A DNA stretch of 64,000 nucleotides from Noviherbaspirillum massiliense JC206 (GTDB taxonomy: Bacteria > Pseudomonadota > Gammaproteobacteria > Burkholderiales > Burkholderiaceae_D). Location: positions 126,674 through 190,673 of the forward strand of contig NZ_HE978635.1 in NCBI RefSeq assembly GCF_000312045.1, written 5' to 3'. Under the pieces are notes generated by a model that saw only the letters and a list, made by a program, of their open reading frames with translations, was not told the DNA's origin and did no database searches. A program made the position numbers and the translations under genes. Below, piece after piece: positions 3,395 to 12,635 of this stretch. Every line of letters starts with the position of its first letter. Position 1 is the stretch's first letter.

Positions 3395-3534
3395 GCAGAT
3401 TGTGACGCAGACTTGCGCCGTGCCAAGGCGGAGTGTCTGTCGCTATGGCATTACTGTTGCCTGGCTTGCCGGAACCAGGCACAGAGGAAACGCCATGGCG
3501 GCCGGTGTCCGTTGGGGGCAGGCCATGATCGGTG

Positions 3535-3562
3535 TTGACACCCGATCAAACTCCGCTAATGT
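3535..3562 (+). promoter_or_regulatory. Candidate sigma-70 promoter
   Basis: A perfect TTGACA at 3535-3540 is followed after 16 bp by TAATGT at 3557-3562, which matches three of six consensus bases. It would start transcription about 15 bp before the ATG at 3586. It overlaps the earlier in-frame GTG at 3532, which argues against that start. Confidence 0.45.
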
Positions 3563-3585
3563 TGTATTGTCAGGGTTTGAAAGTC

Positions 3586-5385
3586 ATGCTCCAACTCATC
3601 CGTCCCCAGTCCGCTTTTGAAGCCGAGGTGCGAGAACGGCTGGGCCTGCTGCCGAACTTTTTCCGGCATGGGCCGGAATCAGCCGCCATCGTTCAGCAAA
3701 TGTGGATGCTGGCCCAGGCAGCCTATCTCGACAACCCGCTTCCCAGCTTATTCAAGGAAAGGTTGCTGACTTATCTCGCGCGCCTTTCCTCGGCTCCCTA
3801 CTGGCGTGCGCGCCATGCCGGCTTTTTAACGGGACGCGGATTTCCGGCAGGCGATGCCGCGGCCGACCCGCAGACTGTGCAGGAAGCCATTGCCTTGCTG
3901 CAGATGCCCCTGGCGTCGCCGGAGCGGATCCAGGCCGCCGCCACGCGCCTGCTCGCGCAACCGGTACCGCTTGCAGCCCTGCCTGCACCGGGAGAGGATG
4001 AGGAACTTGCATTGTTTCATGCAGCCGGCGCAATCCTGCTGGCTCCGGACGCAAGCGAATTGCCGCGCAAGGCATTGCATCATGCGCTGGGCAGTGAAAG
4101 GGCGGAGTCGCTGCTCGGCCTGATCACCTTTGCCCACGCTGCGCAGATGTGGGCCAGCGTCCATCCGGATATTGCAATCGAAGACGACATGCAGGACGTG
4201 TTGCGGCAGCAGCCGGAACTCTCTGCCCTGGTCCATCTTCCGCCGCCGAGTGCAGGCGCGCCCGGAAGCATGCGCTCCGGCGGCCCGGCTCTGCGCAGCG
4301 AGCGTGACAGCGAGCAGGACGACTTCCTGATGCTGGTGGGGCATGATTTGCGCAATCCGCTGGCGGCAATGAGCGCGGCAGTGGAAGTCCTGCAGTTAAC
4401 GGGATCGCCAGACCCGAGGCTGCACAAGGCGAGCAACATCCTGAGTCGCCAGACCGAAGCGATGGGGCACATGCTGGATGAACTGGTGGATCTGGCGCAA
4501 CTGTCGCGCGGCCAGATTTCTCTCAACAAAGAGTTGCTGGCAATTGATGACGTATTGCGGGAGGCAGTGCGTGGACGCCAGGCATCGCTGCAGGAAGCCG
4601 GCATCACGGTAAGGCTGGACTTGCCGCTCACGCATACCTATGTGCTGGCCGACCGCAGCCGGCTCGGCCAGATTTTCAGCAATCTCTTGTCTGGCGCGCA
4701 GCGCTTCATGAGAGGACCTGGCCAGATCGTGGTGAACATGAGCACCACGGCCGAGCGGGTCTTGATCAGCCTGGGTGAAGCCGGTTCGGCCAGCCTGCCC
4801 GGCCCTCCATCGCGGCTTCCGGCCCAAGGCCAACGGAGGCAGGCGCCGAACCTCGGGCTGGCGATCGCCGTCAGACTTGCCGAGCTGCACGGTGCCTTGC
4901 TTGAAATCGGCGCGCCATCACAGGGAGCGGGATTCAAGTTTTCCATGCCCGTGAAGCAGCAGGCAACGCCGCCCGCGGAAACCGATTCCGCAAGCGAGCC
5001 TGCGTCCGAGGCCGTCAAGGTGCTCGTGATCGAAGACAACCGCGACCTGGCCAAGCTGTTTTGCGATTTGCTGGAAGTGATGGGGTGTACCACGGAAGTC
5101 GCACTCAATGCCCGGGCCGGGCTGGAGCGTGCGCGGAAACGCGCGCCTGACATCGTGTTTTGCGACCTTGCGCTGCCCGGCGAGAAAAACGGCTTCGATT
5201 TCGCCCACGACTTGCGCGCCGATCCACAACTGGGACGCATTCCGCTGATCGCCGTCACTGGGCACAGCGGCGACCAAGACCGGCAGCGCGCGCTTGGCGC
5301 CGGCTTCGACCGGGTGTTTGCCAAGCCGATCAAATTCGCGGAAATTCAGGAAGTCCTGCATGCCTTCCAGAGGCAGGCGCGCTAG
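3586..5385 (+). CDS. AhpD-like-domain hybrid histidine kinase with degenerate ATPase domain
   Basis: This 599-residue protein begins with an all-helical region (about residues 1-215) resembling the AhpD/carboxymuconolactone decarboxylase fold, with motifs LPNFFR, FKERLLTYLARLS and RARHAGFL. The usual AhpD CxxC active site is absent. HisKA follows, with H253 in the box GHDLRNP, then a HATPase-like region and a C-terminal receiver (about 480-595; IEDNRDLAKLF, CDLALPGEKNG, AKPIKF). The ATPase motifs are eroded: NLLSGA lacks the Mg-binding Asn, the DxGxG box reads EAGSA, and the G2 box is only LGLAI. It may therefore be a pseudokinase or phospho-acceptor. ATG 3586 is preferred because a promoter-like sequence covers the earlier in-frame starts at 3532 and 3559. 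The receiver closely resembles the protein at 62917-63342. Confidence 0.85.
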   Translation: MLQLIRPQSAFEAEVRERLGLLPNFFRHGPESAAIVQQMWMLAQAAYLDNPLPSLFKERLLTYLARLSSAPYWRARHAGFLTGRGFPAGDAAADPQTVQEAIALLQMPLASPERIQAAATRLLAQPVPLAALPAPGEDEELALFHAAGAILLAPDASELPRKALHHALGSERAESLLGLITFAHAAQMWASVHPDIAIEDDMQDVLRQQPELSALVHLPPPSAGAPGSMRSGGPALRSERDSEQDDFLMLVGHDLRNPLAAMSAAVEVLQLTGSPDPRLHKASNILSRQTEAMGHMLDELVDLAQLSRGQISLNKELLAIDDVLREAVRGRQASLQEAGITVRLDLPLTHTYVLADRSRLGQIFSNLLSGAQRFMRGPGQIVVNMSTTAERVLISLGEAGSASLPGPPSRLPAQGQRRQAPNLGLAIAVRLAELHGALLEIGAPSQGAGFKFSMPVKQQATPPAETDSASEPASEAVKVLVIEDNRDLAKLFCDLLEVMGCTTEVALNARAGLERARKRAPDIVFCDLALPGEKNGFDFAHDLRADPQLGRIPLIAVTGHSGDQDRQRALGAGFDRVFAKPIKFAEIQEVLHAFQRQAR

Positions 5386-6551
5386 TAGGCATAATACGGG
5401 CCGGTCCCGCCGGGCGTGCTCTTGCCCTCGATCGCGGTGAATACGCTCCTGCCAAAGAAAAACGGCAGTCCCCAATCAAATTCCGCAGCAGACGCATTGT
5501 AATAGCCGAGGCCATCGAAAACGGCCAGGCCGGGATTGAGGCGCACTAATGCTTCCACATTATCCAGGTGAAAGGCGGTCGCGATCGCCGCACCGTTGCT
5601 TCCCTGGTTGAACGCGCCGAGAACCTGCGGCATGGCCGGGCAATACGAGCCGGTACTGCATACCGGGAGTTCCGTGTCCGAAAAAAATATTCCGTTCGAG
5701 CCGCTGTCGATAAAGCCTTTGACGCGAGCTACACCCTTGTAAAAGGTGGTGAAGTAGCCGGCGGGATTCACCGCCAGAACGCTTGCCGCACCGAGCGTAT
5801 TGTTGGCTTGCGTGCCGATGCCGAACACAAGTTCGCCTGTGGCGGACGCAAGCCCGTGGGCAGCGGCGGGAGGCAGCTTGATCACGACGCCATTGTTATC
5901 GGCGGGGAAAAACGGGACCGGATGCTGCACCTGCCGCTCCAGCGGCGCGAGCGCCGGCTGGCAACCGGCCGGCGCACAGGCGTAATAAAAGCCCAGACTG
6001 GCGGTCTGGGCGCAAGGCAGGCCGCAGTCCTGAATGAACACGCCCACGCCCAGCAAGCCATTGGCGCGCAGGGATTGCACCCCGTCCACCAGCGGCGCAA
6101 CGCCGGCGCAGTCGGCCGGCACATTCGGAAATTCGGCGCCGCCTATGAGCTGGATCGGTATGGCGCTCGCCTGTTCGCCGGCCAGGCGCACATCCGCCTG
6201 CTTGACCGGTCCCCAGGCGACATGGGTCAGGAACTGGGTGCATTCCACCAGTGCGCTGCCGTCGGCCAGCGTTTGCTGGGGCAGCGGCAGGTCGAGGGCC
6301 GAGGCAAGAATCCGCAAGCCGGATGAACCGGTATCGACCATGACATGGTCGATAGTACGGCAATCGGTGCGGCTGCCCGGCATGCAGACGGTGACGCTGA
6401 CGAAAGGCCGGTTGATGCTCGCATTGACCGGTCCGGCATCGATCGTGATGGGAAGCACATTTGCATTCGCGCTGGCCGGAGTCTGAGCGCTCGCGGCGTG
6501 CCACGGCAAGAAATTCAAGCAGGACAGCAGGAGGATCAGGAAGGCGCGCAT
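5382..6551 (-). CDS. Exported DUF3443-family protein with pepsin-like motifs
   Basis: A 389-residue protein with a signal peptide of about 22 residues ending near HAASA. It matches the DUF3443 family of Burkholderiales. Two aspartic-protease-like motifs are visible: DTGSS at D73 and DSGSN at D282. The hydrophobic-hydrophobic-Gly segment NGLLGVG near 164-170 sits where pepsins have a similar one. At least ten cysteines, several in pairs, suggest a disulfide-bonded periplasmic or secreted protein. It lies 7 bp downstream of the DUF2844 gene on the same strand, so the two are probably co-transcribed. Its stop codon overlaps the 3' end of the convergent kinase gene. An AGG-type ribosome site precedes the ATG. 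Protease activity is inferred from motifs only. Confidence 0.88.
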   Translation of the reverse strand: MRAFLILLLSCLNFLPWHAASAQTPASANANVLPITIDAGPVNASINRPFVSVTVCMPGSRTDCRTIDHVMVDTGSSGLRILASALDLPLPQQTLADGSALVECTQFLTHVAWGPVKQADVRLAGEQASAIPIQLIGGAEFPNVPADCAGVAPLVDGVQSLRANGLLGVGVFIQDCGLPCAQTASLGFYYACAPAGCQPALAPLERQVQHPVPFFPADNNGVVIKLPPAAAHGLASATGELVFGIGTQANNTLGAASVLAVNPAGYFTTFYKGVARVKGFIDSGSNGIFFSDTELPVCSTGSYCPAMPQVLGAFNQGSNGAAIATAFHLDNVEALVRLNPGLAVFDGLGYYNASAAEFDWGLPFFFGRSVFTAIEGKSTPGGTGPYYAY

Positions 6552-6558
6552 GCTTGCC

Positions 6559-7014
6559 TCACTGCAGGTCTTCGGCCGCGACGCCTTGGGGCAGCAAGTC
6601 GGGCAGGTATGCCTTTCCGGAAAAGGTGCGCATATGGCCGCTCGATTGCAGCACGAAGCCGGGCTGCCGGATCATTGCCTGCCTTTGTCCCGCTGGAACT
6701 TCCTGCGCTGCTTCGCTGTATTGATCGAAGTAAGGGCCGAGGAGCTGGTCCAGTTTTGGTTGTGCCGGGCCTTCCCAGGTCACGGCAAACACCTTGCCGT
6801 TGGCGCCCGCATATTCCCGGACGACGGTGCCCGAAGGCATGCGCATTTCATGCACGGTGTAATCGCTGCCCGCGCTGGCATCGGTGCGCGTGGCCTGCAT
6901 GCGCAGGCGGTCAGCCTGGATGGACTGGATATCGCCGCCCAGTTCTGCCCGGGCGGGAAGAGTCATGTATGCGGCAATCAGGGCAATGCTTGCCGGCCAG
7001 ATTGCAGGCTTCAT
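6559..7014 (-). CDS. DUF2844-family exported protein
   Basis: A 151-residue protein with an N-terminal signal peptide (cleavage near LPARA, about residue 23). It matches DUF2844, a small exported family of unknown function usually found beside DUF3443, as here. The mature part is short and beta-rich in appearance, with the conserved segments YTVHEMRMPSGTVVREY and FAVTWEGPAQP. A good ribosome site (GGGAGA) precedes the ATG. It is the first gene of a likely two-gene operon with DUF3443 and is divergent from the serine hydrolase. The small size and fixed pairing suggest a partner, chaperone or inhibitor of DUF3443, which is inference. Confidence 0.85.
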   Translation of the reverse strand: MKPAIWPASIALIAAYMTLPARAELGGDIQSIQADRLRMQATRTDASAGSDYTVHEMRMPSGTVVREYAGANGKVFAVTWEGPAQPKLDQLLGPYFDQYSEAAQEVPAGQRQAMIRQPGFVLQSSGHMRTFSGKAYLPDLLPQGVAAEDLQ

Positions 7015-7168
7015 TGCATTCTCCCGTCAATCCCAGCATAGACTCTTTGACAAGCATGATAGTTCTGCCGGGACGATCGCGAGGGCGATGCGCTATCATG
7101 CCGCCCGGATAAGACACCGGCCTGACAACTCATTACCATGTGCCATTTCCGATGCCCGGAGCAGGAAG

Positions 7169-8371
7169 ATGAAGAAAATAATTGACCAGCCTGATTCCCG
7201 CGGGGTTTTGCGTGAGCGGCTCGCCATCTTGACGGACAGGATGCAAGCCGATATCGATGCCGGCCGGATTCCCGGTGCGGCCATGCTGATTGCCCGGGAA
7301 GGCGACGTCGTGTACGAGCAAGCCGTGGGTGTGCAGGATCCGGCCACCGGCGCGCCGATGACGCTCGATACCATTTTCCGCATTTATTCCATGACCAAGC
7401 CGATCGTATCGGTGGCGGTGATGATGCAGGTGGAGCGGGGCCGCCTCTTGCTCAGCGACCCGGTGGCGCAGTATCTGCCGGAACTGGCCAATCTCAAGGT
7501 CGGCATCGAAACCGTGGACGCGGACGGCCAGCCGGCACTGGAACTGGTCGAGGCGAGGCAGGCCATCACGGTGCAGGATCTGCTGCGCCATACTTCGGGC
7601 TTCACCTACGGAATCTTTGGCGAATCGCTGGTCAAGAAGGCGTACCTGAAGGCCGGCATCGGACATCCGAAAAGCACGAGCGAGGAATTCATCCGTGCCC
7701 TGGCCGGAGTGCCGCTCGCCTATCAGCCGGGAAGCACCTGGGAATACGGCGTGTCGACCGATGTGCTCGGCGTGCTGCTGGAAAGACTGTCGGGCAAGCC
7801 GCTGGATGCCTTCCTGGAACAGGAGATTTTCCAGCCGCTGGGGATGCGGGAAAGCGGGTTCTGGGTCGAGCCCCGGAACCAGCACCGGATCGCGGAACCG
7901 TTCGCGGCCGATCCGGTCACGGGCGCCGCGGTAAAGCTGCGCCAGGCGCAGACCAGGCCCAACTTCCTGTCCGGCGGCGGTGGCATGGTATCGACCATGC
8001 GCGACTACCGGCGGTTTGCACAAATGCTGCTGAATGAAGGCGAACTGGACGGCGTGCGCCTGCTGTCGCCCAAGACGCTGCGTTACATGACCAGCGACCA
8101 CCTTGGCGACCTGCCGCAGGCGAAAGGCGGCGCTGCCTTCCTGCCGGGACCCGGTTATGGCTTCGGGCTGGGATTTGCGGTCCGCACCAGCATGGGCGGC
8201 CCGGTCATTCCCGGCACGCCCGGCGATTACACCTGGAGCGGTCTGGCCGGCACTTATTTCTGGGTCGATCCTCAGGAAAGGATGCTGGCGATTTTCATGA
8301 TGCAGGCGCCGGAGCAGCGGGACCGTTACCGCCAGCTGTTTCGCCACCTGGTGTATGCCGCGCTCAGGTGA
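7169..8371 (+). CDS. Beta-lactamase-fold serine hydrolase (class C / family VIII esterase-like)
   Basis: A 400-residue cytoplasmic-looking protein of the beta-lactamase/PBP superfamily. The S-x-x-K nucleophile motif is SMTK (S74, K77). The second motif is the Tyr of WEYGVSTDVLG, and the C-terminal third motif is WSGLAGTYFW. This pattern fits family VIII esterases (EstB-like) and related 6-aminohexanoate or D-peptide hydrolases better than true AmpC enzymes. There is no signal peptide, which also argues against a periplasmic beta-lactamase. The ATG at 7169 is preceded by AGGAAG. A longer in-frame extension back to 6884 would run antisense through DUF2844 and is rejected. The substrate is unknown. 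Confidence 0.88.
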   Translation: MKKIIDQPDSRGVLRERLAILTDRMQADIDAGRIPGAAMLIAREGDVVYEQAVGVQDPATGAPMTLDTIFRIYSMTKPIVSVAVMMQVERGRLLLSDPVAQYLPELANLKVGIETVDADGQPALELVEARQAITVQDLLRHTSGFTYGIFGESLVKKAYLKAGIGHPKSTSEEFIRALAGVPLAYQPGSTWEYGVSTDVLGVLLERLSGKPLDAFLEQEIFQPLGMRESGFWVEPRNQHRIAEPFAADPVTGAAVKLRQAQTRPNFLSGGGGMVSTMRDYRRFAQMLLNEGELDGVRLLSPKTLRYMTSDHLGDLPQAKGGAAFLPGPGYGFGLGFAVRTSMGGPVIPGTPGDYTWSGLAGTYFWVDPQERMLAIFMMQAPEQRDRYRQLFRHLVYAALR

Positions 8372-8505: not shown

Positions 8506-8534
8506 TTGATTGCGGATTGGCGTCGGACTACAAA
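8506..8534 (+). promoter_or_regulatory. Candidate rpfC promoter
   Basis: TTGATT at 8506-8511 and TACAAA at 8529-8534 are separated by 17 bp, each matching four of six consensus bases. The predicted start is about 10 bp before the rpfC ATG, so the leader would be very short. No clear ribosome site is present. Support is modest. Confidence 0.3.
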
Positions 8535-8551
8535 CAGATACTTTGACAAGC

Positions 8552-10792
8552 ATGCAAAACCAGAATCAATTCGCAAATGCCGGCCTTTACCGCTTTCCCG
8601 AGAAAGCCCGCAAGCTGTTCAAGCCTTTCGAGCGGCGTTTCGTGGGCCGGCTCGACAGCGAACATGAGCAGGCTTTCGTCAGGCTTTGCGTCGGCATCGT
8701 CCTTGGTTGTTATTTTTCCTATTTCGCCTACCAGCATCCCGACAGCGGCCAGATGCTGAATACGCTTACCGTAAGCGTCATGGCGGTGTTCATTCTCGCT
8801 TCGGCGGCGCTCATCATCCACATTGCCCTCTATCCGGAGATTTCGGTCAGCAGGAGGATGATCGGCGCAGCGCTCGACTCGGGCACGACCACCTATTTCG
8901 CCTTTACCCTGCCGGAATTCGCGGCACCCCTGTACAGCCTGTACCTCTGGCTCATTTTCGGCCACGGATTCCGCTTTGGCCGGCGCTACCTGTTCTTTAC
9001 CCTGGCGCTGTCGCTGGTCGGCTTCGGCGCGGCGGTCGCCTATGTGCCGTATTGGGCCGACAAGACTTTCCTCGGGGTTGGCCTCTGGGTGGGGATGTTG
9101 CTCATTTCCTGCTATCTCAGCACGCTGGTCAATCGCCTCATGAAGGCGCTCGAACATGCGGAGGCGGCAAACCTTGCCAAGCGCAGGTTCGTCTCCTCGA
9201 TCAGTCATGAAATGCGCACGCCGCTGAATGCGGTGATCGGCATGGCCGATCTCCTGCAAAGCACGGACCTGAACAAGGATCAGGAAGAGATGGTGCGCAG
9301 CATGGACAGCGCATCCCGGCTGATGCTGTCGCTGATCGAGGATGTGCTGGACTTTTCCAAGATCGAGGCCGGCAAGCTGGTGGTGGAGAACACGCCGTTC
9401 AACCTGCATCAGTTGATCCATGAAACCGCCAAGCTGTTCAAGTACCAGGCTGCCGCGAAAAACCTGGCCCTGCAGGTTGACCTCCATCCGGACGTGCCCG
9501 AACCGGTAATCGGCGACCCGACCCATCTGCGCCAGGTCCTTTCCAATCTCTTGTCCAACGCCCTGAAGTTCACCGAGAAGGGCAGGGTGGTCCTGCGCAC
9601 CCGTGCGCTGGGCGTGGATACGAAGGCTGCGCGCCTGCGCTTCGAGATCGAAGACACCGGCATCGGCATTGCTCCGGACGCGCAAGCCCACATCTTTGAA
9701 AGCTTCACGCAGGCCGACGCCTCCACCACCCGGCAGTATGGCGGCACCGGCCTGGGCACGACCATATCCAAGCAACTCGCCGAACTGATGGGCGGCCGCC
9801 TGGGTTTTTACAGCGAAGCCGGCAAGGGCAGCACTTTCTGGCTCGAGCTGAAGCTCCCGCTCCAGCCTGCAGTTCCGGCTGCCGCGCCTGCACCCGTCAT
9901 GCACGGTCCGCAAAAGGCCCAGCTGCCACCGCCTCGGCAGAATCAGGACATATCGGTGCAGCGCCAGTACAGGATTCTGGTCGCCGAGGACAATTCCCTG
10001 AATCGCAAGGTCATCGAAAAAATGCTGGCGCGTGCAGGACATGTCTGCACACTCGCTACCAACGGGGAAGAGGCGCTCGATTTGCTGACGCAGTCAAGTT
10101 TCGATGCAGTGATCCTGGACATGAACATGCCGGAAATGAGCGGACTGGAAGTGATCAAGGCCTACCGCTACATGCACGGTGCCAAGCCGCGCTTTCCGTT
10201 CGTGATGCTTTCCGCCGACGTGACGCAGGAATTGCAAACCGAATGCCTGGCTTCAGGCTTCGATGAATTCCTGCCGAAGCCAATCCAGATCGCCCAATTG
10301 CTGACCACGATAGACCGACTGGTCGAGCAATACCAGAGCATCTCGAGTCCGGACGAAGGCAGCGGGGGCAGCCCGGCATCCGCAGCGGAGACAGGGATGG
10401 CGAAGGAAGACTCCAGCTTGCTCAATTATGAAATCCTGCATGAGCTGGATGAGATCACGAGCGACAATGCCTTTTTGAACGGCCTGATTGATGAATTTGC
10501 CACAAGTACGCAAGCGTTGACCGACAAGCTGGAAAGGGCGTTGCACATGCAGCAGATGAGCGACTGCAGGAATATCCTGCATGCGATCAAGGGGTCGGCG
10601 CTCGGAATCGGCGCGGTTTCGCTGCAGGCCACCTGCGAGGAATTTGAACGCACGTCCCAGCAGAAACTGCAAAGCGATCCGCAATTCGTGGTGGCTGCAG
10701 TGCGCAACAGCTACCGGCTGACGCAGCAGGCCCTTGAGAATTACCGCAGACGCCGGCAGCGGCCGCGCGCGGCGATGAACGCAACCAATTGA
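8552..10792 (+). CDS. rpfC: RpfC-type DSF sensor: membrane hybrid histidine kinase
   Basis: This 746-residue protein has the full RpfC layout. An N-terminal membrane region (about 42-195, roughly five segments) follows a juxtamembrane stretch GRLDSEHEQ that closely resembles Xanthomonas RpfC. HisKA has H219 in SISHEMRTPLN. HATPase_c (about 320-435) has NLLSNALKF, EDTGIGI and GTGLG. The receiver (about 473-592) has phospho-acceptor D523, and a C-terminal Hpt domain has H677 in HAIKGSA. In Xanthomonas, RpfC senses cis-2-unsaturated fatty acid signals, passes phosphate to RpfG, and restrains RpfF through its receiver. Here rpfF lies two genes downstream, but no HD-GYP rpfG gene is in the window. 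A longer start (8510) is possible. The ATG at 8552 aligns with the family N-terminus. Confidence 0.92.
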   Translation: MQNQNQFANAGLYRFPEKARKLFKPFERRFVGRLDSEHEQAFVRLCVGIVLGCYFSYFAYQHPDSGQMLNTLTVSVMAVFILASAALIIHIALYPEISVSRRMIGAALDSGTTTYFAFTLPEFAAPLYSLYLWLIFGHGFRFGRRYLFFTLALSLVGFGAAVAYVPYWADKTFLGVGLWVGMLLISCYLSTLVNRLMKALEHAEAANLAKRRFVSSISHEMRTPLNAVIGMADLLQSTDLNKDQEEMVRSMDSASRLMLSLIEDVLDFSKIEAGKLVVENTPFNLHQLIHETAKLFKYQAAAKNLALQVDLHPDVPEPVIGDPTHLRQVLSNLLSNALKFTEKGRVVLRTRALGVDTKAARLRFEIEDTGIGIAPDAQAHIFESFTQADASTTRQYGGTGLGTTISKQLAELMGGRLGFYSEAGKGSTFWLELKLPLQPAVPAAAPAPVMHGPQKAQLPPPRQNQDISVQRQYRILVAEDNSLNRKVIEKMLARAGHVCTLATNGEEALDLLTQSSFDAVILDMNMPEMSGLEVIKAYRYMHGAKPRFPFVMLSADVTQELQTECLASGFDEFLPKPIQIAQLLTTIDRLVEQYQSISSPDEGSGGSPASAAETGMAKEDSSLLNYEILHELDEITSDNAFLNGLIDEFATSTQALTDKLERALHMQQMSDCRNILHAIKGSALGIGAVSLQATCEEFERTSQQKLQSDPQFVVAAVRNSYRLTQQALENYRRRRQRPRAAMNATN

Positions 10793-10818: not shown

Positions 10819-11460
10819 ATGTCATTTTTTATCCGTCTCATCGAGTCCACCGATAACAGCCGCCGCGAATTGGAAGCGCTCCCCAAGGTGCAGGACATGT
10901 TGAACAGCAGGATGTCGCGGGAAACCTACCAGGCGTTTTTGATGGATCTCTACCATATCGTGTGGCACTTCTGCCCGATCATGGCGGCGGCGGCAAGCCA
11001 TTGTCCCGACGAGTTCCGGGATGTGCGCTATCACCTCTACAACAACATCAATGAAGAAAAGGGACATGAATCGCTGGTGCTGAACGACCTGGCAGTGTTC
11101 GGCGTCAGTGCGCAACAAGTGGCCGCAGCGCCGCCGACTTATCCGGTACAGGCCATGATTGCCTATAACTACCATGCGGCGGAACGCATCCATCCCTGCG
11201 CGGCACTCGGCATGCTGTATGTGCTGGAAATCATTTCATCGGTGTATGGCGGCCAGGTGGCGACATCCATCTCCCGGGGCTTGAACATGGAACTGCCGGA
11301 CGGCTTTACCTTCCTGGAATCGCATGCGTCGATGGACATGGACCACATGGCGAAGCTGCGGGCGCTGCTGCAGAAGATCACGGATGAAGAGGTGCAGGAT
11401 ATCGTCATCAATGCGATCCACATGAATTTTTATCTCTTCATCAAATTCCTGTCCCAGTAG
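10819..11460 (+). CDS. Heme-oxygenase-like diiron oxidase/oxygenase (HDO), DSF locus
   Basis: A 213-residue, all-helical protein of the TenA/PqqC/heme-oxygenase-like fold, of the type usually labelled iron-containing redox enzyme. The metal-ligand signature of the HDO family is visible: E80-x2-H83 (EEKGH), E137 in YVLEII, and H169-x3-D173-x2-H176 (HASMDMDH). Histidines H46 and H50 in helix 1 may complete the site. Known HDOs include UndA (fatty acid to terminal alkene) and SznF (N-oxygenation). The gene starts 26 bp after rpfC with a strong AAGGAAG site and ends 233 bp before rpfF. Co-transcription with rpfC is therefore likely. A role in making, altering or destroying the DSF fatty acid is inference. 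The substrate is unknown. Confidence 0.82.
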   Translation: MSFFIRLIESTDNSRRELEALPKVQDMLNSRMSRETYQAFLMDLYHIVWHFCPIMAAAASHCPDEFRDVRYHLYNNINEEKGHESLVLNDLAVFGVSAQQVAAAPPTYPVQAMIAYNYHAAERIHPCAALGMLYVLEIISSVYGGQVATSISRGLNMELPDGFTFLESHASMDMDHMAKLRALLQKITDEEVQDIVINAIHMNFYLFIKFLSQ

Positions 11461-11693
11461 GAGACGGAATCTTGCTTCCGCGGGGCGCCAGGCATCGATG
11501 CAGGCCGACGGCATGCGCGTGCCTCATTCAGCATGGATTTGGGCTAGAGTAGCGGATCCGCGAATGAACCGCGCTGTGACTGCGCCGACCAGACATTACA
11601 TAACAAGGTTCGAAGTACTGTCCGGCGGCGGGCAAACCCGTACCGGTTCGGCCAGCAATTTCCAATCGCAGCGCAATCCTAGGGAGTATGAAA

Positions 11694-12635
11694 ATGAATG
11701 CATTGACAGGGCCGCAGCACCTGAGATTTCCGGTTAGCCCTGAAACTGCAGGGGGCAAGAAATTCAGCCAGATCGATGTCGAATACGATCCGGCCACGCG
11801 CTCGGTCTGGACTTTTCTGAAGCCGTCCGGCACGGCCTGCTTCAACCTGGGCATCCTGCAGGATTTGCACAACAACCATGAGTTCTTCAAGAAGAACGGC
11901 GGCAAGGCCTGGCATGCCGGCGACCTGTGCCCGGTGGATTATTTCGTCGTTGCTTCCAGGGTCGAGCACATCTTCAATTACGGCGGCGACCTTGCGCTGT
12001 TCGTCCTGCTGATCAAGTCGCGCGACCGCGAGGCGCTGCTGCATTACGCCAGGCTGTGCATTGACTGCATCTATGCGCGCATCAGGAATTACGACACCAA
12101 TGCCCTGACCATTTCACTGGTGCAGGGCGATGCCCTAGGCGGCGGTTTCGAAACGGCATTGACCAGCAACGTGGTCATTGCGGAAGAATCTGCGCGCATG
12201 GGCTTTCCTGAAATCCTGTTCAACCTGTTTCCGGGCATGGGCTGCTACAGCCTGCTGGCGCGCCGCCTGGGCCCGAGGAAGACGGAAGAGATGATCTTGA
12301 GCGGCAAGATCTACTCCGCCGCCGAGCTGCATGAGATGGGTCTGGTCGACGTCCTGGTGCCGGCGGGGCAGGGGGAACAGGCGGTGTATGACTTCATGCG
12401 TCAGAGCGGCAAGCGCCTGAACGGCATGCGCGCCATGTATGAATGCCGGCACCACACCTTCCCGGTCTCGTATGAAGAATTGATGAGCATTACCGAAGTG
12501 TGGGTGGATGCGGCGCTGCGCCTGCAGGACAAGGACTTGAAAATGATGGGGCGGCTGGTGCGTTCCCAGATGCGCCAGCAGGAGTTGCGCAAGAACGGCT
12601 TGCCGGTGGATCCGGACGGCGACTGCATCGATTGA
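11694..12635 (+). CDS. rpfF: RpfF-type DSF synthase (crotonase family)
   Basis: A 313-residue enoyl-CoA hydratase/isomerase-fold protein. RpfF enzymes dehydrate 3-hydroxyacyl-ACP to the cis-2-enoyl form and then release the free acid by thioesterase activity. The two catalytic glutamates are present as E153 (GGGFE) and E173 (GFPEILFNLFPGMG), with the same 20-residue spacing as E141/E161 of Xanthomonas RpfF. The neighbouring rpfC supports the assignment. ATG 11694 is chosen because AGGGAG at 11681-11686 lies 7 bp upstream. An in-frame ATG at 11688 would be too close to that site. The exact DSF chain length and branching cannot be read from the sequence. Confidence 0.93.
   Translation: MNALTGPQHLRFPVSPETAGGKKFSQIDVEYDPATRSVWTFLKPSGTACFNLGILQDLHNNHEFFKKNGGKAWHAGDLCPVDYFVVASRVEHIFNYGGDLALFVLLIKSRDREALLHYARLCIDCIYARIRNYDTNALTISLVQGDALGGGFETALTSNVVIAEESARMGFPEILFNLFPGMGCYSLLARRLGPRKTEEMILSGKIYSAAELHEMGLVDVLVPAGQGEQAVYDFMRQSGKRLNGMRAMYECRHHTFPVSYEELMSITEVWVDAALRLQDKDLKMMGRLVRSQMRQQELRKNGLPVDPDGDCID

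Follow-up and report, generated by a model that had tools for sequence, protein, structure and literature searches.

In the diffusible signal factor (DSF) systems of xanthomonads, a crotonase-family synthase, RpfF, is encoded beside a hybrid sensor kinase, RpfC, often by convergent genes. The portions of PMC4504480 drawn on here describe RpfF as both a dehydratase and a thioesterase, with cis-2-unsaturated acids as its free products and saturated acids as further possible products, the release of the latter being counteracted by RpfB in Xanthomonas; they report binding between RpfF and RpfC in Xanthomonas, regard RpfF as the enzyme underlying the synthesis of all DSF-family signals, and mention no oxidase. 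Heme-oxygenase-like diiron oxidases (HDOs) form a separate superfamily of more than 10,000 members, roughly a dozen of which have been validated functionally according to the sections of PMC13108848 used here. In crystal structures of five HDOs with a three-histidine, three-carboxylate site, the substrate coordinates Fe1 by a carboxylate, as stated in excerpts of PMC13108848 and PMC13185094. The same sections of PMC13108848 give free fatty acids as the substrates of the HDO UndA, which decarboxylates saturated medium-chain acids, attack on the C3 hydrogen being one of two mechanisms proposed for it. A stretch of 64,000 nucleotides from Noviherbaspirillum massiliense JC206 (contig NZ_HE978635.1, positions 126,674 to 190,673; hereafter the window) brings these two fields together: a gene for an HDO-type protein at 10819..11460 on the plus strand lies between an rpfC-like and an rpfF-like gene. 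As judged from sequence, the protein is, with somewhat better than even probability, a diiron oxidase that acts on the free fatty acid released by RpfF, most likely tailoring a DSF-type signal. This conserved partnership between a known enzyme superfamily and a known signalling system is apparently undescribed: no account of an HDO in an rpf locus, or of a link between RpfF and an HDO, was found in the open-licence literature, and the word 'quorum' occurs nowhere in the HDO review (PMC13108848).

The open reading frame is a real gene. A ribosome-binding site resembling AAGGAAG was seen by eye 5' of its ATG, and the oxidases of two close relatives (loci L119 and L121) differ by ~0.03 at nonsynonymous sites (dN) and ~0.66 at synonymous sites (dS), dS being saturated between the window oxidase and that of L095. 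The original prediction, made from the letters of the window, had described its product as an HDO-type protein of 213 residues, and this description is borne out by a Pfam match to PF14518 (Haem_oxygenas_2; E-value 5.4e-23, score 82.1 bits, cut-off 28.9) and by the alignment of its ligands. A match to PF03070 (TENA/THI-4/PQQC) at 28.4 bits exceeds the gathering cut-off of 22, but the PF14518 score is far higher, and the former is a broad superfamily overlap. The heme oxygenase family PF01126 (21.4 bits) stays under its gathering cut-off of 23, and TIGR04305 (CADD/PabS; 40.1 bits) under its curated cut-off of 200. The structure of the protein is predicted confidently to be helical (pLDDT 94.2, pTM 0.89), in a heme-oxygenase-type fold. 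Six residues, E80, H83, E137, H169, D173 and H176, make up the putative set of three histidines and three carboxylates. The prediction had numbered five of these correctly and had not named E137, the second-helix glutamate that a full metal site requires; with this residue the alignment provides, by sequence, all six ligands of what is probably a complete two-metal site, the lack of which in a structural model would have counted against the prediction. In an alignment of the window oxidase with 43 rpf-linked relatives, which leaves out the truncated sequence of L123 and the remote one of L139, all six ligands are intact in 43 of the 44 rows, and the position of E84, beside the helix-1 histidine, is acidic (E or D) in all 44. 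L114:7001-7663 is the sole row with Glu replacing D173. No second copy of the oxidase was found at E<=1 in a search of the window's genome.

Among described proteins, profile searches against the window oxidase gave E-values of 8.1e-8 for MboA, 8e-6 for CADD and 2.8e-4 for UndA; 3DDE, the solved structure of Sden_3740 from Shewanella denitrificans, a protein with no assigned function, is 20% identical to the window oxidase and also ranks ahead of UndA. MboA, an HDO acetylenase of mangotoxin biosynthesis, has the same kind of six-ligand set with an E-x2-H motif (E86/H89) and carries an Asp (D90) beside the helix-1 histidine, where the window oxidase has E84. It differs in its third-helix ligands (H172/D176/H181 versus H169/D173/H176), its tripeptide substrate and its redox partner MboB, and its base Tyr82 corresponds by sequence position to N76 of the window oxidase. 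UndA, a medium-chain fatty acid decarboxylase whose product is 1-undecene, aligns at all six ligands, including E-x2-H and H-x3-D-x2-H, although the relationship is remote. UndA was set back as a direct model, since MboA and CADD match the window oxidase better. No UndA is known to us from a DSF locus, though no search was made for one. CADD has a helix-1 spacing of E-x6-H, unlike the E-x2-H of the window oxidase, UndA and MboA.

The link between this oxidase and rpf genes extends beyond the window's locus. A search of 245 genomes of its family with the window oxidase matched 41 at E<=1e-5, and loci were seen for 30; a further 15 weak places (<=33% identity) came without loci. In each of the 17 loci with at least 40% identity (L001-L017) the oxidase lies between an upstream, same-strand rpfC relative and an rpfF relative, the latter codirectional in 3 and convergent in 14, while the 13 loci at 30-34% identity (L018-L030) have neither relative within 1.5 kb. 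Scanning GTDB species contigs with an alignment of the 17 sequences gave 45 loci, of which L139, at 25% identity and with no rpf gene detected, was dropped. An rpfF relative is present in 43 of the remaining 44, all with at least 40% identity over the best segment; it is convergent and downstream in 36, whereas the codirectional cases comprise 2 downstream and 5 upstream, and it lies <=510 bp from the oxidase in 42 of the 43 and at ~2 kb in L102. The 44th locus, L123, is cut off by the contig edge within the oxidase. An rpfC match lies near the oxidase in 41 of the 44 (weak, 28-33%, in L125, L129 and L138), and the contigs of L102, L113 and L118 leave only 110-325 bp ahead of the oxidase. The family and GTDB-wide sets overlap in several genomes and, with loci found later, amount to 46 distinct oxidase sequences. 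A search of 398 genomes of the phylum with the 44-row alignment matched 85 at E<=1e-15; of the 30 whose loci were seen, two have rpfF beside the oxidase (the window's own and G489, at 44%) and 28 are of the HDO2 type described below. The prediction had named a search for the order rpfC-HDO-rpfF across Burkholderiales as a check and would have fallen with the absence of the gene from other rpfC/rpfF loci; the order does recur in related genomes, next to other orders, and the gene is present at other such loci, though many rpfF loci lack it. Two of the taxonomic labels stand out. L123 belongs to a metagenome-assembled genome (MAG) labelled Bordetella parapertussis, which looks doubtful. L101 comes from a MAG labelled Rhodospirillales; its rpfC, oxidase and rpfF genes are arranged in the betaproteobacterial gene order, and on a tree of RpfF it clusters with Betaproteobacteria-labelled rows, so it is mislabelled, misbinned or transferred.

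Five arrangements of the three genes were found in total. The codirectional order of the window occurs in three Noviherbaspirillum genomes including its own, and the commonest arrangement has rpfC and the oxidase on one strand with a convergent rpfF. In L128, labelled as the alphaproteobacterial genus Inquilinus, the oxidase follows rpfF and faces a convergent rpfC; in G489 (L232) it precedes rpfF, which faces a convergent rpfC-like gene. Finally, in L125, L129, L130 and L138 RpfF and the oxidase form a single frame of 628-688 codons with RpfF in front, joined by a polar, low-complexity linker of ~70-130 residues as judged by eye. Pfam finds both ECH_1 and Haem_oxygenas_2 in each of the four, and a genome search showed no internal stop in any of the frames. 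All four are from MAGs, L125 and L130 labelled Alphaproteobacteria and L129 and L138 labelled Proteobacteria only. A single assembly error cannot account for the fusions, because L125, L129 and L138 share 55-65% identity with L130 over their matched parts. The fusion is nevertheless rare. With a 630-residue fusion as query, 18 of 240 genomes of the class of G434, taken as Alphaproteobacteria, matched at E<=1e-40, 16 with RpfF relatives and 2 with an HDO2-type protein only; no fifth full fusion was found among the 240, and the short loci around the RpfF relatives of the 16 yielded no oxidase.

In a quick phylogeny of 88 distinct oxidase domains (46 rpf-linked, 41 HDO2 and one Bdellovibrionaceae protein on a very long branch, for which the program warns of long branches meeting), all 46 rpf-linked oxidases, fusions included, fall on one side of a branch with a Shimodaira-Hasegawa-like approximate likelihood ratio test (SH-aLRT) support of 99. 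The ligands are kept in both groups. The rpf-linked group is nearly invariant at F51, C52, N117, Y143 and N203, residues that differ in the HDO2 sister clade, whose members are 29-35% identical to the window oxidase. HDO2 genes also differ in their surroundings, with no rpfF relative within ~1.5 kb in 41 of 41 loci and a conserved gene cluster of their own, noted in L018-L030, L048, L050, L090, L092, L093 and L142-L169. This widespread cluster consists of an AMP-binding ligase, HDO2 and a short-chain dehydrogenase/reductase, the ligase and the reductase being present in 41 of the same 41 loci, together with a tetratricopeptide repeat protein in 40 of 41. In L093 a 'thermostable hemolysin' gene (PF12261) precedes the cluster and genes for an OmpR-type regulator and a histidine kinase follow it, an arrangement that L048 and L050 partly resemble. 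The HDO2 cluster may represent another acyl-derived signalling or metabolite system; a literature search found no description of it.

The predicted fold, the ligand set, the linkage to rpfF in several gene orders, the fusions with RpfF and the single clade are the observations that support an oxidase of RpfF products. The oxidase is fused to RpfF or switches sides between rpfC and rpfF, and the signal is what these two have in common; we therefore infer that the oxidase acts on the signal. It would be a soluble enzyme of heme-oxygenase fold that holds two metals, probably iron, by three histidines and three carboxylates and presumably uses O2. The free fatty acid released by RpfF, cis-2-unsaturated or, as a by-product, saturated, would bind the metal site by its carboxylate as the substrates of other HDOs do, and the chain would be oxidised nearby by desaturation, hydroxylation or decarboxylation. 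Tailoring of the DSF-type signal read by RpfC would be the most likely purpose. Plain UndA chemistry on DSF itself is doubtful because in a cis-2-unsaturated acid the sole hydrogen at C3, the position attacked in one of the two mechanisms proposed for UndA, is vinylic; an MboA-type desaturation is conceivable.

Alternatively, the oxidase could inactivate DSF, for example by decarboxylation or hydroxylation, and thus end signalling. UndA, as covered in the consulted sections of PMC13108848, is a precedent for an HDO that decarboxylates medium-chain acids, and in most loci the oxidase follows rpfC on the same strand and may be co-expressed with the receptor. However, UndA matches the window oxidase less well than either MboA or CADD, and a synthase and its destroyer in one chain would be wasteful. 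Tailoring is ranked above such turnover, which we consider unlikely, because it seems improbable that a maker would be fused with a destroyer; the fusion to the synthase likewise favours tailoring over the breakdown of the signal that the original prediction had also allowed.

Slightly less probable still is a non-catalytic partner that binds iron or O2 and regulates RpfF or RpfC by contact. Such a role would fit the binding of RpfF to RpfC in Xanthomonas, as given in the portions of PMC4504480 used here, and the near-fixed residues F51, C52, N117 and Y143, which are not ligands and separate the clade from its sister. It fits poorly with the retention of the metal ligands and with the change of partners, as the oxidase occurs behind rpfC or with rpfF, including as a fusion with a long linker. 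Perhaps the oxidase instead disposes of by-products, consuming the saturated free acids from the thioesterase activity of RpfF and so taking on the task of RpfB in Xanthomonas. The same portions of PMC4504480 document both the release of saturated acids by RpfF and its countering by RpfB, saturated medium-chain acids are the substrates of UndA, and the fusion with RpfF would suit this role. Oxidising the acyl chain would, on the other hand, be costlier than re-esterifying it, and rpfF loci without the oxidase cope, so that by-product disposal appears improbable. An unrelated housekeeping function, either a CADD-type self-sacrificing para-aminobenzoate (pABA) synthase or a TenA-like protein hitch-hiking in the locus, is very improbable: the TIGR04305 score, the UndA- and MboA-like helix-1 spacing and the gene context speak against the pABA synthase, and a linkage kept through several rearrangements and a fusion speaks against a simple hitch-hiker.

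Several results weigh against the tailoring of a DSF-type signal. The window RpfF passes the broad model NF006452 (PRK08788; 374.9 bits versus 177) but falls under the cut-off of the NCBI equivalog NF053515 (245.8 bits versus 550), so that its production of DSF is itself presumptive. A search for RpfF in the 245 family genomes gave 41 places, of which the best 25 comprise 17 with the oxidase, 7 with rpfC and rpfF adjacent and no oxidase, and 1 at a contig edge; hence 7 of the 24 assessable best-scoring loci lack the oxidase, as do all 16 of the weaker places. In 349 genomes of the order, 65 places were found, and of the 63 not already covered only 4 carry the oxidase and 59 do not. For 19 of the RpfF places (5 in the family, 14 in the order) a flank of only ~1.5 kb was seen. 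Moreover, the single clade of rpf-linked oxidases contrasts with the distribution of their RpfF partners, which occupy three separate positions on a quick tree of 79 RpfF rows (44 carrying and 35 lacking the oxidase, mostly chosen for having an rpfC relative, with identical sequences and the short RpfF pieces of L106, L114 and L243 left out): 38 of 50 rows in one clade, 5 of 5 in a clade of L125, L128, L129, L130 and L138, and the long-branch row L232. Co-inheritance of oxidase and RpfF is thus not simple. The oxidase label requires 11 changes on this tree, compared with a mean of 26.3 when shuffled, and rows without it are nested among its bearers, a pattern pointing to repeated loss or to acquisition by transfer. 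As many rpfF loci do without it, the oxidase is an accessory and appears to have been lost several times. Within the 50-row clade, RpfF rows lacking the oxidase showed no measurable excess in distance from the root (12 versus 38 rows, one-sided Mann-Whitney p 0.31); by eye, their tip branches gave an impression of greater length.

A further possibility, which we raise tentatively and hold to be somewhat less than an even chance, is that the true quorum signal is an oxidised RpfF product made by a dedicated diiron oxidase, with gain and loss of the oxidase setting a dialect and with synthase and tailoring enzyme forming one two-headed protein in some Proteobacteria. Such a signal might, equally tentatively, be an acid of dienoic, ynoic or hydroxylated type, or else a volatile alkene. 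The bond of a conserved oxidase to RpfF, in gene order, clade and fusion alike, predicts an additional oxygen-dependent step and a novel class of signals or of routes for removing them. The pairing hints at an undescribed step in making or removing fatty-acid signals and gives an orphan HDO clade a concrete, testable candidate substrate.

The neighbouring genes in the window resemble the xanthomonad pair. The rpfC-like gene (8510..10792, plus strand, 760 aa) encodes a hybrid sensor kinase in which a hydrophobic N-terminal part is followed by HisKA, HATPase_c, REC and Hpt domains in the order expected of RpfC; a simple hydropathy scan gave four hydrophobic segments, compared with the five-helix membrane sensor of RpfC in DSF systems. 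Its stop at 10792 lies 26 nt before the oxidase start on the same strand, exactly the distance originally given. The rpfF-like gene (11688..12635, plus strand) encodes a 315-aa crotonase of the DSF synthase family. Residues E155 and E175, which we take to be the counterparts of the two catalytic glutamates of Xanthomonas RpfF, are invariant in 79 of 79 aligned RpfF relatives. The oxidase had been placed just before the synthase; rpfF is indeed the next gene downstream, but the wording was loose, as 227 nt (11461..11687, plus strand, bounded by the two reading frames) separate the oxidase stop from the rpfF start. A simple scan of this stretch, itself uninformative, found no promoter or terminator site.

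The window organism differs from the xanthomonad DSF system in having no clear RpfG. Its genome gave only partial matches to the REC-HD-GYP protein, the best at 37% over ~136 residues, and no clear REC-EAL or RpfG orthologue. In some loci that carry the oxidase, rpfC has an RpfG-like gene as its neighbour. Two Noviherbaspirillum relatives have a regulator directly upstream of rpfC (L032:6281-7510, REC-EAL by Pfam, and its homologue L033:6143-7369), in the slot that an RpfG-like REC-HD gene takes in other loci such as L036. Neither type of gene adjoins rpfC in the window, where a putative hybrid kinase/receiver gene and a putative beta-lactamase-like serine hydrolase gene, named by sequence reading, lie upstream (3532-5385 and 6884-8371). 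In L246 a ketoacyl synthase gene (4875-6143) lies between rpfC and rpfF in the usual slot of the oxidase, and is possibly another accessory of signal biosynthesis.
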